Assembly (NCBI RefSeq): GCF_009749405.1 | Contig: NZ_WBIQ01000006.1 | Coordinates: forward strand, 310,001 to 374,000 | DNA length: 64,000 bases | Direction: 5' to 3' | From: Agromyces lapidis | GTDB lineage: Bacteria > Actinomycetota > Actinomycetes > Actinomycetales > Microbacteriaceae | Shown here: positions 51,450 through 57,757 of the stretch, piece after piece | How positions within the stretch are numbered: the stretch's first letter is position 1 | How the letters are laid out: each line of letters opens with the position of its first letter | Notes under the pieces: generated by a model | What the model was told of the DNA's origin: nothing | Databases searched by the model: none | Seen by the model: the letters and a program-made list of their open reading frames with translations, nothing else | Translations under genes and position numbers: made by a program

Positions 51450-51505
51450 GGGAATCCTTGCAGGAGAGCTCGGGGGAGTGGGCGGGACGACCTCGACCCG
51501 GATTC

Positions 51506-51534
51506 ATCCTGACACCGGCACGAGTCCGCGACAA
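51506..51534 (-). promoter_or_regulatory. promoter of the ABC transporter operon
   Basis: On the minus strand TTGTCG (51529-51534), a 17-nt spacer and CAGGAT (51506-51511) form a plausible promoter with a leader of about 50 nt. Confidence 0.55.
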
Positions 51535-51539
51535 GCGAC

Positions 51540-51562
51540 TTGTTCGCATATCACGAGAACAA
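51540..51562. promoter_or_regulatory. candidate GntR operator in the divergent region
   Basis: TTGTTC (51540-51545) and GAACAA (51557-51562) form a perfect 6-bp inverted repeat separated by 11 nt, ending just before the gntR -10. An overlapping imperfect repeat, GCGACAAG-CGA-CTTGTTCGC, extends to the left over the -35 of the transporter promoter. Confidence 0.5.
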
Positions 51563-51568
51563 TAGGGT
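51563..51568 (+). promoter_or_regulatory. -10 element (TAGGGT) of the gntR gene
   Basis: TAGGGT ends 6 nt before the ATG at 51575, predicting a leaderless transcript. Confidence 0.65.
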
Positions 51569-51574
51569 TTGATC

Positions 51575-51976
51575 ATGCTGATCCGGCTCGATCCGACTCT
51601 GCCGAGCCCGCTCGCCGAGCAGCTCGCGGGCGGGCTTCGCGCCTCGATCATCGACGGGCGGCTGTCGGGCGGCGAGCGCCTTCCCGCGGCCCGCGCGCTC
51701 GCCGACGACCTCGGGGTGAACGTCCACACCGTGCTCCGCGCCTACCACCGGCTGCGCGACGAGCAGCTCATCGAGCTGCATCGCGGCCGCGGCGCCGTCG
51801 TCGCGGTGCGGATCGGCGGCCACGCCGCACTCGCCGGCGCGATCCACGACCTCGTCGACGAGGCGAAGGGGCACGGCCTGCCCGAGGCGGCCCTGCTCGA
51901 GCTCATCCGCGAGGCGTACCGCTCCGCGCCGAGCCCCGCCGGCGTCGTCCGCCCGGCGCCGACACGGTATTCTTGA
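51575..51976 (+). CDS. GntR family transcriptional regulator, short (YtrA-like)
   Basis: The 133-residue regulator has a GntR winged helix-turn-helix: LAEQLAGGLRASIIDGRLSGGERLPAARALADDLGVNVHTVLRAYHRLRDEQLIELHRGRGAVV (about 14-77). A short helical tail (about 80-120) has no large effector domain, as in the YtrA subgroup. Members often regulate adjacent ABC transporters, and this gene diverges from one with an inverted repeat between them. The ATG at 51575 fits the leaderless promoter; a TTG 6 nt upstream is unlikely. Its stop codon overlaps the -10 of the ileS T-box promoter. Confidence 0.88.
   Translation: MLIRLDPTLPSPLAEQLAGGLRASIIDGRLSGGERLPAARALADDLGVNVHTVLRAYHRLRDEQLIELHRGRGAVVAVRIGGHAALAGAIHDLVDEAKGHGLPEAALLELIREAYRSAPSPAGVVRPAPTRYS
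51968..51973 (+). promoter_or_regulatory. -10 element (TATTCT) for the ileS T-box transcript
   Basis: TATTCT lies at the end of gntR, just before its stop. Transcription would start near 51980, just upstream of the T-box Stem I. Confidence 0.5.
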
Positions 51977-52195
51977 CGGCAACGACATCGATCCGGCCAT
52001 CACCGGGGAGTCTTCGGCAGAACGCGAACGGCGGCCACGTGGCATCCGATCGTCAGTAGAACCGAACGGGGCGGCCCGTCACAGCCGGCAATGAGGGGCC
52101 TCTCGATCAGAGGGGCAAGCGAGGTGGTACCGCGGCGGAGGCTCGATCGAGCGGCCGGCGTCCTCGTGAGAGCATCCGTCCCACAAGGAGCGAGC
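51977..52195 (+). promoter_or_regulatory. ileS T-box riboswitch (actinobacterial, translational type)
   Basis: The leader contains the T-box sequence AGGTGGTACCGCGG at 52122-52135, whose TGGT (52125-52128) can pair with the ACCA end of uncharged tRNA-Ile. Near the 5' end the hairpin CCGG-CCATCA-CCGG exposes an ATC isoleucine specifier, followed by GGGGAGTC, as in the ultrashort Stem I of actinobacterial ileS T-boxes. The AAGGAG ribosome-binding site at 52185-52190 is the expected regulated target, since no terminator stem with a T-run is seen. Uncharged tRNA-Ile would expose the site and raise IleS synthesis. Confidence 0.88.
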
Positions 52196-55100
52196 GTGTA
52201 CCCCCGTACCCCAGACGACCACGGTGTCGCCCCCTCACCCGACTTCCCCGCCGTCGAGCGCGAGGTCCTCGAGTTCTGGCTGAACGACGAGACCTTCCAG
52301 GCCTCGATCGATCAGCGCGAGGGCGCCCCCGAGTGGGTCTTCTACGACGGCCCGCCGTTCGCCAACGGCCTGCCGCACTACGGCCACCTCCTCACCGGCT
52401 ACGCGAAAGACCTCTTCCCGCGCTACCAGACCATGCGCGGCCACCAGGTGCACCGCCGCTTCGGCTGGGACACGCACGGCCTGCCCGCCGAGCTCGAGGC
52501 CGAGCGCCAGCTCGGCATCACCGACAAGAGCCAGATCGAGGAGATGGGCATCGCGGCCTTCAACCAGGCCGCGCGCGAGTCGGTGCTGCGCTACACGAAG
52601 GAGTGGGAGGAGTACGTCACGCGCCAGGCGCGATGGGTCGACTTCGCCGACGACTACAAGACGCTCGATGTCACCTTCATGGAGAGCGTGATCTGGGCGT
52701 TCAAGACGCTCTACGACAAGGGCCTCGCCTACGAGGGCTACCGGGTGCTGCCGTACTGCTGGCGCGACCAGACGCCGCTCTCGAACCACGAGCTGCGCAT
52801 GGACGACGACGTGTACAAGATGCGTCAGGACCAGACCGTGACGGTCACCTTCCCGCTCACCGGCGCGAAGGCCGAGTCGCTCGGGCTCACCGCGGTGCGC
52901 GCCCTCGCCTGGACGACCACGCCGTGGACCCTGCCGACGAACTTCGCGCTCGCCGTCGGTCCCGAGATCGAGTACGCGGTCGTGCCCGGCGGGCCGAACG
53001 GCACCCCCGACGCGACGGTGCTCCGCGAGGGCGCCGAGGGCGTCGCGGGCGACACCGAGGTGCTCGGCGCCGAGTACCTGCTCGCGATCGACCTCGTCGG
53101 CAACTACGCCAAGGAGCTCGGCTACGACTCCGCCGATGAGGCGCGCGCCGCGGTGTCGCGTACCGTTCGCGGCGCCGAGCTCGACGGCGTCACCTACGAC
53201 CGGCTCTTCGACTACTACGCCGACGTCGAGGCGTACGGGCTCGAGAACGCCTGGCGCATCCTCGTCGCCGACTACGTCACGACCGAGGACGGCACGGGCA
53301 TCGTGCACCAGGCGCCCGCCTACGGCGAGGAGGACCAGAAGATCGGCGAGGCCGCAGGCATCCCGGTCGTCATCTCGCTCGACGAGGGCGGCCGGTTCCT
53401 CCCGGCCGTCACGGATGTCGCGGGGATGCTCTGGAGCGACGCGAACAAGCCACTCACCCAGCTGCTGAAGGCCGAGGGCCGGCTGCTGCGCCAGGCGAGC
53501 TACGAGCACTCGTATCCGCACTGCTGGCGCTGCCGCAACCCACTGATCTACCGCGCCGTCTCGAGCTGGTTCATCAAGGTGCCCGAGTTCAAGGGCCGCA
53601 TGGGCGAACTGAACCAGGACATCAACTGGGTGCCCGACAACGTGAAGGACGGCCAGTTCGGCAAGTGGGTCGCGGGAGCCCGTGACTGGTCGATCAGCCG
53701 CAACCGCTACTGGGGTTCGCCGATCCCGGTGTGGAAGAGCGACGACCCCGAGCACCCGCGCATCGACGTGTACGGCTCGCTCGAAGAGCTGGAGCGCGAC
53801 TTCGGTCGCCTCCCGCTCGGCCCCTCGGGCGAACCCGACCTGCACCGCCCCTACATCGACGACCTCACGCGGCCGAACCCCGACGACCCCACGGGCCGTT
53901 CGACGATGCGGCGCATCCCCGACATCTTCGACGTCTGGTTCGACTCGGGCTCGATGCCCTTCGCCCAGGTGCACTACCCATTCGAGAACCGCGAGTGGTT
54001 CGACTCGCACAACCCGGCCGACTTCATCGTCGAGTACATCGGGCAGACGCGCGGCTGGTTCTACGTCATGCACGTGCTCTCGACGGCGCTCTTCGACCGA
54101 CGCGCCTTCTCGAACGTCGTGAGCCACGGCATCGTGCTCGGCAGCGACGGGCAGAAGATGTCGAAGTCGCTGCGCAACTACCCCGACGTCAGCGAGGTGT
54201 TCGACCGCGACGGCTCCGACGCGATGCGCTGGTTCCTCATGTCGAGCTCGGTGCTGCGCGGCGGCAACCTCGTCGTGACCGAGGAGGGCATCCGCGAGGG
54301 CGTGCGCCAGCTGATGCTGCCGCTCTGGAGCACCTGGTACTTCTTCTCGCTCTACGCCAACACCGCGAAGGACGGCGGCTACGAGGCATCCCGTTCGACG
54401 ACGTCGAACGATGTGCTCGACCGCTACCTGCTCGCGAAGCTGCGCGACCTCGTCGAGGCCGTCACCGTCGACCTCGACGACTTCGACTCGCCGCTCGCGG
54501 CCCAGAAGCTGCGCGACTTCGGCGACGTGCTGACGAACTGGTACGTGCGCCGCTCGCGCGACCGCTTCTGGGGCGGCGTCGCCGACGACGGCTCCGGCCG
54601 CGAGGCGTTCGACACGCTCTACACCGTGCTCGAGACGCTCACCCGCCTCGCCGCGCCCCTGCTGCCGCTCGTCAGCGAGAAGGTCTGGCGCGGGCTCACC
54701 GGCGGGCGCAGCGTGCACCTGACCGACTGGCCCGACGCGGCCGAGTTCCCGGCCGACCCGGCGCTCGTCGCCGCGATGGACGCCGTCCGCGAGATCAGCT
54801 CCTCGGCACTGTCGCTCCGCAAGCAGTCGGGCCGCCGGGTGCGCCTGCCGCTCGCGATGCTCACGATCGTGAGCGCGGATGCCTCTGCGCTCGCCCCGTT
54901 CGAGGCGATCCTCCGCGACGAGCTCAACGTCAAGCAGGTCGAACTCGTCGCGCTCGACGAGCACAGCGCCGAGCGCTACGGCGTCACCAAGCGCCTCACC
55001 GTCAACGCGCGGGTCGCCGGCCCGCGTCTCGGCAAGCAGGTGCAGCAGGCCATCCAGGCGGCGCGCAGCGGCGACTGGTCGGTCGCGGGCGACGCGGTCG

Positions 55101-55507
55101 TGGCGGGCGGCATCGCGCTCGAAGCCGGCGAGTACGAGCTCGTGCTCGAGGCCGGCGGATCGGGCGACGGCGAGAACGCGCTCGCCCTGCTCGCCGACGG
55201 CGGCTTCGTGCTGCTCGACACCGCGACGACTCCCGAGCTCGAGGCCGAGGGCCTCGCGCGCGACGTCGTGCGAGCCGTGCAGGAGGCGCGCAAGGCCGCC
55301 GGCCTCGAGGTCGGCGACCGCATCGCGCTCAGCCTCGCGCTCGACCCGGTCGGCGCGGCCGCGGCCGAGACCCACCGCGCACTCATCGCCGGCGAGACGC
55401 TCGCGACCTCGCTCGAGGTCGTCGCATCGGCGTCCGCCGTCGAGTCCGACGAGGCGAAGCCCGTCGGCGACGATTCACGACTCCTCATCGGATTGGAGCG
55501 CGCATGA
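52196..55507 (+). CDS. ileS: isoleucyl-tRNA synthetase (eukaryote-like type)
   Basis: The 1103-residue class Ia synthetase charges tRNA-Ile. The HIGH motif is the HYGH form in [21 protein letters not shown] near 49-69, and KMSKS is [20 protein letters not shown] near 648-667. The CP1 editing domain lies between ([18 protein letters not shown]), with [15 protein letters not shown]-type zinc-region residues near 443. The length and HYGH form mark the IleS type shared with eukaryotes and often insensitive to mupirocin; insensitivity is an inference. GTG 52196 (M-Y-P-R-T-P-D-D) has AAGGAG 5 nt upstream; the longer frame would begin inside the T-box. folC overlaps its stop by 4 nt. Confidence 0.97.
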
Positions 55508-56871
55508 GCGACGCCCACGACCACGACGCCGCCGACGCGGCCGACGCCGTCTACGCCGCACTCGTCGCCCGGGTGGGCGAGGGGGCGCCGCGGCCGCGTC
55601 TCGAGCCGACGCGGCGCGCCGTCGAACTCCTCGGCGACCCGCACCGCGCCGCCCCGGTGATCCACCTGACGGGCACGAACGGCAAGACCTCGACGAGCCG
55701 CATGATCGAGAGCCTGCTGCGCGCCTCGGGCCTGCGCACCGGGCTGCTCACGAGCCCGCACCTCGTGCGATTCACCGAGCGAATCCGCATCGACGGCGAA
55801 TCGGTCTCCGACGAGGCGGTCGCCCGCAACTGGGAGGAGATCCTCCCGTTCGTCGCGATCGTCGACGCCGAGCTCGAGCAGGCCGGCGAATCGCCGCTCA
55901 CCTTCTTCGAGGTGCTGACCGTGCTCGCGTTCGCCTGCTTCGCCGACGCCCCCGTCGATGTCGTCGTGCTCGAGGTGGGCATGGGCGGCGAGTGGGACTC
56001 GACGAACGTCGCCGACGGCCAGGTCGCCGTCTTCACGCCGATCGCGCTCGACCACCAGGCCCGGCTCGGCTCGACCGTCGAGGCGATCGCACGCACCAAG
56101 TCGGGCATCATCAAGCCGGCCGCGGCGGTCGTCACCGCCCGGCAGCCCGACGCCGCACTCGCGGTGCTCGAGGAGGCCGCCGAACTCACCGAGTCGACGC
56201 TCGCCGTCGAGGACGACGCCTTCGCCGTCGTCGGCCGCACCGTCGCCGTCGGCGGGCAGCTCGTGACGATCCGCGGGCTCGCGGGGGAGTACCGCGATCT
56301 CTTCCTTCCGCTCTTCGGGGCGCATCAGGCCGAGAACGCGGCCGTGGCGGTCGCGGCCGTCGAGGCCTTCATCGGCGGCGGCTCGGTGCGACTGGCCGAC
56401 GAGGTGGTCGAGCGGGGCCTCGCCGAGGCGTCGTCGCCAGGGCGGCTGCAGCTCATCGGCATCGAGCCGACGATCCTCGTCGACGCGGCCCACAATCCGC
56501 ACGGGGCCCGCGCGCTCGTCTCGGCGCTCGACGAGTTCTTCGACTTCGACGAGTTCGCGATCGTCGTCGGCGTCGTCGACGACAAGGATGCCGCGGGCAT
56601 CGTCGACGCCCTCGCCGAACTCGACGGTCCGATGCTCGTCACCGCCCCCGACACGGAGCGCGCGCTCCCGGCCGCCGCACTCGAGGCGATCGTCACCGAG
56701 CGCGTCGGCATGAAGCGCACCCTCGTCGTCGAGCGGCTCGACGACGCGCTGGAGGAGGCCCGCACCTGGGCCGCCGAGGCGCCGAAGCGCGCCGTGCTCG
56801 TGACGGGCTCGATCGTGCTCGTCGGCGAGGCGATGGCGATCGCCGACGACCGCGAGTGGGGCATGGCATGA
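55504..56871 (+). CDS. folC: dihydrofolate/folylpolyglutamate synthase
   Basis: The 455-residue Mur-ligase-like enzyme adds glutamate to dihydropteroate and folates. The P-loop [43 protein letters not shown] lies near 56-100. [16 protein letters not shown] lies near 157-172, [23 protein letters not shown] near 182-204, and [12 protein letters not shown] near 328. A short acidic His/Asp/Ala-rich N-terminus precedes the core. The ATG overlaps the ileS stop (ATGA), and its own stop overlaps the DUF4233 start in the same way. Confidence 0.95.
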
Positions 56872-57338
56872 GCGACGCTCGGCACGAGGGCGACGGCGAC
56901 CCGGTGAACGGGGCTGGTGATTCCTCCGTCGACGAGAGCTCCGCGCCTGCTGCGGCCGCTCCGCTGCGCTCGATCCGGCGGAGTCTGGCCTCGATCGTGC
57001 TCGCCTTCGAGACGATCGTCGTCTTCCTCGCCGCACTCGTGATCTGGGGTCTCGCGCAGGGCGGTGCCGACCAGGCGCTGCCGTCGTGGGTCGCCCTCGC
57101 CGCGGGCGGCGTGATCATCCTCGGCCTGATCGCGACGATGGGCCTGCTGCGCTTCGAGTGGGCCTACGTGCTCGGGTGGACGCTGCAGGTGCTCATCGTC
57201 GCGTCCGGCTTCCTCAACCCGGCGATGTTCGTCGTCGGGGCACTCTTCGGCGGCATGTGGTGGTACTGCATGGTCGTCGGCAGCCGAATCGACCGAGAAC
57301 GCGCGGCGGTCGTCGCGCCAGGAAAGGAACAGCAATGA
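56868..57338 (+). CDS. DUF4233 family membrane protein
   Basis: The 156-residue protein has a polar N-terminus (about 1-38) followed by about four membrane helices: LASIVLAFETIVVFLAALVIWGLA near 40-63, SWVALAAGGVIILGLIATMGLL near 73-94, YVLGWTLQVLIVASGFLNPAMFVVGALFGGMWWYCMVVG near 99-137. DUF4233 is an actinobacterial family of unknown function that usually sits between folC and ndk, as here. Start and stop overlap its neighbours by 4 nt, so ileS-folC-DUF4233-ndk are translated as one coupled set. Confidence 0.87.
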   Translation: MSDARHEGDGDPVNGAGDSSVDESSAPAAAAPLRSIRRSLASIVLAFETIVVFLAALVIWGLAQGGADQALPSWVALAAGGVIILGLIATMGLLRFEWAYVLGWTLQVLIVASGFLNPAMFVVGALFGGMWWYCMVVGSRIDRERAAVVAPGKEQQ

Positions 57339-57757
57339 CCACTGCGATCGAAGAGACCCTCGTGATCGTGAAGCCCGACGGGGTCGCCCGCAACCTCACC
57401 GGCGAGATCCTCCGCCGCATCGAGGCGAAGGGCTACTCGCTCGTCGACATCCGCCTCGTGCAGGCCGACCGCGAACTGCTCGCGAAGCACTACGCCGAGC
57501 ACGAGGGCAAGCCGTTCTACGAGCCGCTCGTCGAGTTCATGCAGTCGGGGCCGGTCGTCGCCATGCGCGTCGCCGGCAACCGCGTCATCGAGGGGTTCCG
57601 CGTGCTCGCCGGGACGACGGACCCGACGACCGCCGCGCCCGGCACCATCCGCGGCGACTTCGGTCGAGACTGGGGCCTCAAGGTGCAGCAGAACCTGGTG
57701 CACGGCTCCGACTCCGCCGAGTCGGCCGAGCGCGAACTCGCACTCTGGTTCGCCTGA
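57335..57757 (+). CDS. ndk: nucleoside diphosphate kinase
   Basis: The 140-residue enzyme balances NTP and dNTP pools by phosphate transfer. It starts with ETLVIVKPDGVARNLTGEILRRIEAKGYSLV near 7-37 and has YAEHEGKPFYEPLVEFMQSGPVVAM near 53-77. The catalytic His region NLVHGSDSAESAERELALWF is near 119-138. Length is typical. The ATG overlaps the DUF4233 stop and follows GGAAAGGAA. It ends the operon at a strong terminator. Confidence 0.97.
   Translation: MTTAIEETLVIVKPDGVARNLTGEILRRIEAKGYSLVDIRLVQADRELLAKHYAEHEGKPFYEPLVEFMQSGPVVAMRVAGNRVIEGFRVLAGTTDPTTAAPGTIRGDFGRDWGLKVQQNLVHGSDSAESAERELALWFA

Follow-up and report, generated by a model that had tools for sequence, protein, structure and literature searches.

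Does the leader of ileS in Agromyces lapidis allow this gene to respond to isoleucine supply? The question arises from a 64,000-nucleotide stretch of the 3.8 Mb genome (the whole stretch analysed, here called the window), in which a sequence-only reading had placed a T-box between a gntR-family gene and ileS. We conclude that positions 51984-52195 almost certainly form a T-box riboswitch acting on translation (class II, with an ultrashort Stem I), of the class known from actinobacterial ileS genes. The responses of the leader to isoleucine and to tRNA charging are predicted from its sequence. The elements of the proposed riboswitch are the following.

51984-52012, + strand: ultrashort Stem I, 29 nt, with basal GAC/GUC, a purine-rich asymmetric (kink-turn-like) bulge and CCGG/CCGG
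51999-52001, + strand: specifier codon ATC (isoleucine)
52013-52066, + strand: Stem II, with a UUCGG/CCGAA base and the S-turn GAA (52020-52022)/AGUA (52055-52058)
52067-52086, + strand: Stem IIA/B pseudoknot, supported by covariation in an alignment of 41 leaders
52097-52116, + strand: Stem III hairpin, assigned from the sequence and seen as a hairpin in the single-sequence fold
52119-52167, + strand: antisequestrator, with helix A1 GCGAGG (52119-52124)/CCUCGU (52162-52167)
52125-52131, + strand: antisequestrator bulge UGGUACC
52161-52189, + strand: sequestrator, UCCUCGUG (52161-52168) with CACAAGGA (52182-52189), one C-A mismatch
52185-52190, + strand: Shine-Dalgarno (SD) sequence AAGGAG

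Architecture and detection of the T-box

Stem I is capped directly by the specifier loop, and the apical part that binds the tRNA elbow is absent. The features on which the sequence-only reading was built were all recovered: the ATC specifier is flanked by CCGG/CCGG arms, AGGTGGTACCGCGG at 52122-52135 is present as a single + strand copy with none on the - strand of the window, and AAGGAG lies five bases 5' of the GTG start of ileS (52196). The antisequestrator's A2 bears an extra GCUC/GAGC hairpin. The layout of Stem II and its S-turn matches that given in section 4.1 of a review of T-box structure (PMC7583486).

Support for this fold comes from comparison of leaders. A motif filter passed 119 of 146 loci, among them that of the window itself (L112) and near-duplicates in which a single species had entered through two collections. 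Among the 27 rejected loci are ileS loci from distant bacteria and T-box leaders for which the regular expression was the one step not passed (e.g. L008, L130, L162 and L166). For the test of the sequestrator described below, a start codon was called in 114 of the 119, giving 85 distinct leaders, 52 of them outside the genus, and 41 of these 52 entered the structure alignment. In that alignment the hand-written structure was paired in 98.4% of 1066 cells, and 13 of its 26 pairs showed changes on both sides. On none of five measures did any of 500 shuffles score as high, and when the partners were displaced by one to three columns, pairing fell to 35.5-46.2%. The two basal pairs of Stem I that were counted and the four CCGG pairs were standard in all 41 outgroup leaders. 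Because the leaders had been chosen by motifs at the T-box, at ATCA and at GG-AGAA, the invariance of the specifier and of the other motif columns arises partly by construction. The pairs that vary lie outside the selection motifs: they belong to the base of Stem I, to the pseudoknot and to outer Stem II. In the pseudoknot, IIA was paired in 98.4% and IIB in 95.1% of cells, and all three IIB pairs change on both sides. Folded as a single sequence, the whole leader did no better than shuffled versions (z 0.56), of which 144 of 200 equalled or exceeded it in stability, and the minimum-energy fold so obtained differs from the T-box fold.

A covariance-model search had been proposed as a check on the sequence-only reading, and its outcome was split: a class-specific model matches the leader, whereas the Rfam T-box model stays under its gathering score. 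The class-specific model, R1, is our own and was built from the 41 leaders, all outside the genus. It matches 51985-52167 with 119.5 bits (E 2.6e-31), compared to E 0.32 for the runner-up in the 64 kb, and this score falls inside the range of the main matches in the genus (91.6-133.4 bits). R1 finds the element in 59 of 60 genus genomes. One genus genome that is rated 99% complete (G203) is without an ileS T-box and also without an ileS match at E 1e-10; either a gap in the assembly or a highly divergent synthetase would account for this. Among genomes sampled from the class, 137 of 197 contain an R1 match, a count of matches at any position relative to ileS.

At gathering scores, Rfam reported tRNA alone and no T-box across the whole window. 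At a permissive threshold, RF00230 matches 51979-52168 over model positions 1-219 with 33.8 bits (E 1.1e-5), against a gathering cut-off of 93. That cut-off was reached by none of 150 genomes of the family, and 82 of the 150 match at E 0.01 or better; this run used stricter filters, under which the window's own genome was missed, and the single-genome run found it. Given the prevalence of R1 matches in the class, the Rfam cut-off probably overlooks many such T-boxes. In contrast to RF00230, the element in the window lacks a long Stem I.

The ligand can be predicted from the same genome. It contains one tRNA-Ile(GAT) locus by our own pattern, in agreement with ARAGORN, and in this tRNA a 7-bp acceptor stem is followed by the discriminator A, with no encoded CCA. 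The mature ACCA end would therefore be complementary to the UGGU of the antisequestrator bulge. The leader is predicted to bind uncharged tRNA-Ile.

Promoter and operon context

The genes around the leader, and the putative promoter within the first of them, are as follows.

51575-51976, + strand: gntR-family regulator gene (133 aa; Pfam GntR E 3.6e-15)
51968-51973, + strand: -10-like hexamer TATTCT, spanning the two codons that precede the gntR stop
52196-55507, + strand: ileS, with a GTG start (TIGR00392 806.3 bits, cut-off 621.4; also a Pfam match)
55504-56871, + strand: folC (TIGR01499 353.5 bits, cut-off 162.65; Pfam Mur ligase domains)
56868-57338, + strand: gene for a DUF4233 protein (PF14017 E 7.1e-25; no NCBIfam match above cut-off)
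57335-57757, + strand: ndk (NF001908 183.1 bits, cut-off 155; also a Pfam match)

The promoter suggested by the sequence-only reading gains comparative support, but its position needs correction, since the hexamer occupies the final two sense codons of gntR and ends right before the TGA stop (51974-51976), without overlapping it. Among 116 distinct 70-base upstream sequences, 108 have TANNNT at -38 to -27 from the specifier, compared to 0-4 of 116 in five other intervals of 12 positions, and 98 of the occurrences fall at -30 or -31. A scan of 51500-52300 with a generic sigma-70 consensus gave no promoter, probably because the matches to the -35 consensus among the leaders are mostly 2-3 of 6. 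If transcription begins just past the -10, the leader is about 215 nt long.

The gntR gene lies immediately upstream in 23 of 30 loci of the genus (L112-L141, a count to which the window contributes one) and in Agromyces ramosus, and a tblastn search at 1e-5 of 29 other named loci (L003-L031) found it in three, each time more than 1 kb off. The overlap of promoter and gntR is therefore a local arrangement. Dependence of the promoter on gntR was ruled out, since leaders that lack a neighbouring gntR retain the TANNNT.

Eight leaders have no TANNNT in the interval, namely L027, L088 and six from the genus (L122, L124, L125, L127, L128 and L131). These six have GGTAGTCTTG farther upstream, with an inserted hairpin between GGTAGTCTTG and the T-box. 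The insertion, approximately 40-75 bases 5' of the specifier, resembles Stem I: it follows the pattern ACGAY...GANCCGG...RUCGU with a changed specifier loop, and each of the six copies folds alone as a hairpin (-15.4 to -25.3 kcal/mol). It resembles the product of a duplication of the promoter-proximal part, and candidate roles are those of a decoy, a spacer or a partial tandem T-box. The window's leader has no such extra copy.

A separate feature was observed in six of the 119 leaders (L123, L126, L132, L133, L141 and L168), in which palindromes resembling TGAGCNNGTCGAAG lie between Stem I and the T-box, twice in L123. We take these to be REP-like, a label of our own. Counted on both strands, the exact TGAGCNNGTCGAAG motif has 409 copies in one genome (G175) compared to 3 of the reversed control, and 6 compared to 2 in the window's genome; the window contains no palindrome of this type.

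Profile matches bear out the identities proposed for ileS, folC, the DUF4233 gene and ndk, and adjacent genes overlap by four bases, as the sequence-only reading had noted, each time with the letters ATGA. The nearest named record to the N-terminus of IleS is from A. ramosus (91% identity), followed by other Microbacteriaceae, in a search that may have excluded records very close to the window's genome. Of the 30 named loci L002-L031, 22 have the order ileS-folC-DUF4233-ndk, and some of the others are cut by contig ends. ATGA or GTGA, a putative overlap with the next start, is present at the stop in 11 of 29 loci for ileS, 20 of 25 for folC and 7 of 22 for DUF4233. In the window, ndk has an SD-like sequence of its own, AGGAAAGGAA. 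Given these patchy ends and the separate SD-like sequence of ndk, the suggestion that isoleucine starvation is coupled to folC, DUF4233 and ndk may hold here, as speculation, and is not clearly conserved.

Two further observations concern ileS itself. An ATG at 52091, part of the AAUGAG stretch of the T-box, opens a frame that runs through the T-box in phase into ileS (52091-52195). An N-terminally extended ileS starting from it was rejected, as no more than 8 of 57 genus leaders have such an ATG with an open reading frame into ileS, and it is probably fortuitous. Another genome (G202) has a second IleS match, 29% identical and approximately 3 kb from ileS (L186, G202:C15:334816-336303), which is perhaps another class I synthetase.

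The proposed switch and its alternatives

The 3' arm of A1, CCUCGU, is common to two structures, since it pairs either with GCGAGG or with the SD region. We propose that this exchange would constitute an RNA switch that opens the ribosome-binding site when isoleucine is short. When uncharged tRNA-Ile is sensed, GCGAGG and CCUCGU would be held together and the SD would remain free, so that ileS could be translated. With charged tRNA the second contact would be impossible, and the 3' arm would pair with the SD through UCCUCGUG/CACAAGGA, causing translation to drop.

If the sequestrator pairing is real, its two segments should fit each other better within a species than between species. Consistent with this, exchange of the SD segment among 50 of the 52 non-genus leaders gave a mean of -12.47 kcal/mol for native combinations compared to -9.88 kcal/mol for swapped ones, and none of 5000 permutations was as good. 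All 85 distinct leaders likewise gave 0 of 5000. The controls, with 52 leaders each, gave 4932 of 5000 for the first codons, 2328 of 5000 for the region before the promoter and 3652 of 5000 for Stem II. A paired change is also seen between species, with GUG/CAC in the sequestrator of the window compared to GCG/CGC in A. ramosus. The proposal of a translational, ultrashort-Stem I, isoleucine-specific T-box at ileS is upheld by a covariance model made without the genus, covariation of pairs, complementarity to the tRNA end and covariation of sequestrator and SD.

By predicted energy, the OFF state is the less stable of the two. As a duplex, the sequestrator segments of the window give -9.5 kcal/mol. 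Forced folds of 52117-52200 gave -31.2 kcal/mol with the antisequestrator (ON) and -27.8 kcal/mol with the sequestrator (OFF), compared to -32.2 kcal/mol unconstrained, and the ON fold still pairs three of the six SD bases. Predicted energies alone favour no OFF state, and the switch is unproven by them.

Position 52018, beside the Stem II S-turn, differs from nearly all relatives. It is A in 117 of the 119 filtered leaders and in three more from the genus that the filter had not caught, and C in the window's genome and in a 98%-identical sister. By the numbering G37-A38-A39 in the review (PMC7583486), 52018 is the equivalent of A35 and lies outside the string of five purines. A35 was used as a labelling site in a Nocardia study (PMC10651847), and the effect of a C here is for that reason uncertain. 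One reading of this substitution is that both this species and its sister have a differently tuned T-box: the C would loosen the hold of Stem II on the codon-anticodon duplex, the mismatched sequestrator would weaken the OFF state, and the two changes would compensate. We consider this improbable; if true, the result would be a leakier and less sensitive switch.

Still less probable is a T-box that acts on transcription by antitermination, as in Firmicutes, even though the same T-box core and an antiterminator-like helix are present. No terminator-like site with a T run was found in 51500-52300, and on this basis transcriptional attenuation was rejected, Rho-dependent effects apart. In addition, the A1 3' arm has the SD region as its other partner, and the two covary across species. 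That the T-box has decayed, being kept in this species by descent while ileS is expressed constitutively, is the least credible reading. The C beside the S-turn, the C-A mismatch and an OFF fold weaker than the ON fold could be taken as signs of decay, but the R1 score lies within the range of the genus and the sequestrator differs from that of A. ramosus by a paired change.

The translational T-box that we favour resembles systems already described. Leifsonia xyli belongs to the same family as Agromyces. The genome list in the Methods of a 2005 study (PMC1262725) includes L. xyli, and Agromyces is absent from that list. The study described T-boxes before ileS in several Actinobacteria, in which a hairpin that sequesters the SD replaces the terminator; the layout in the window is the same, and no mechanistic difference was found relative to its account of these ileS T-boxes. 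The review of T-box structure, in its treatment of this class, describes an ultrashort Stem I, an S-turn, a pseudoknot and two solved ileS complexes (PMC7583486). As in the ileS T-boxes of Nocardia farcinica and Mycobacterium tuberculosis (PDB 6UFM and 6UFG), described there, the window's element has a short Stem I with AUC, a Stem II S-turn, a IIA/B pseudoknot and a UGGN bulge. Unlike these two, it has a C at the equivalent of A35 and an extra A2 hairpin; according to the same review, translational T-boxes often carry hairpins of the latter kind. For translational T-boxes of Actinobacteria, TBDB employs a class II covariance model of their own, as its description states (PMC7778990), and R1 is our own model, distinct from the one described there. 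In an open-licence library we found no paper on a T-box riboswitch in Agromyces and none joining four of T-box, isoleucyl, operon, folC and ndk, and Microbacteriaceae were unmentioned in the T-box and ileS papers among the matches listed.

A T-box in the ileS leader is already known in kind, and each sequence feature of the class that was tested was found in A. lapidis. The element confirms a known actinobacterial design, not something new. It is a well-supported addition, its promoter and its SD sequestrator both backed by comparative evidence, to a class that the Rfam threshold leaves uncalled in this family.
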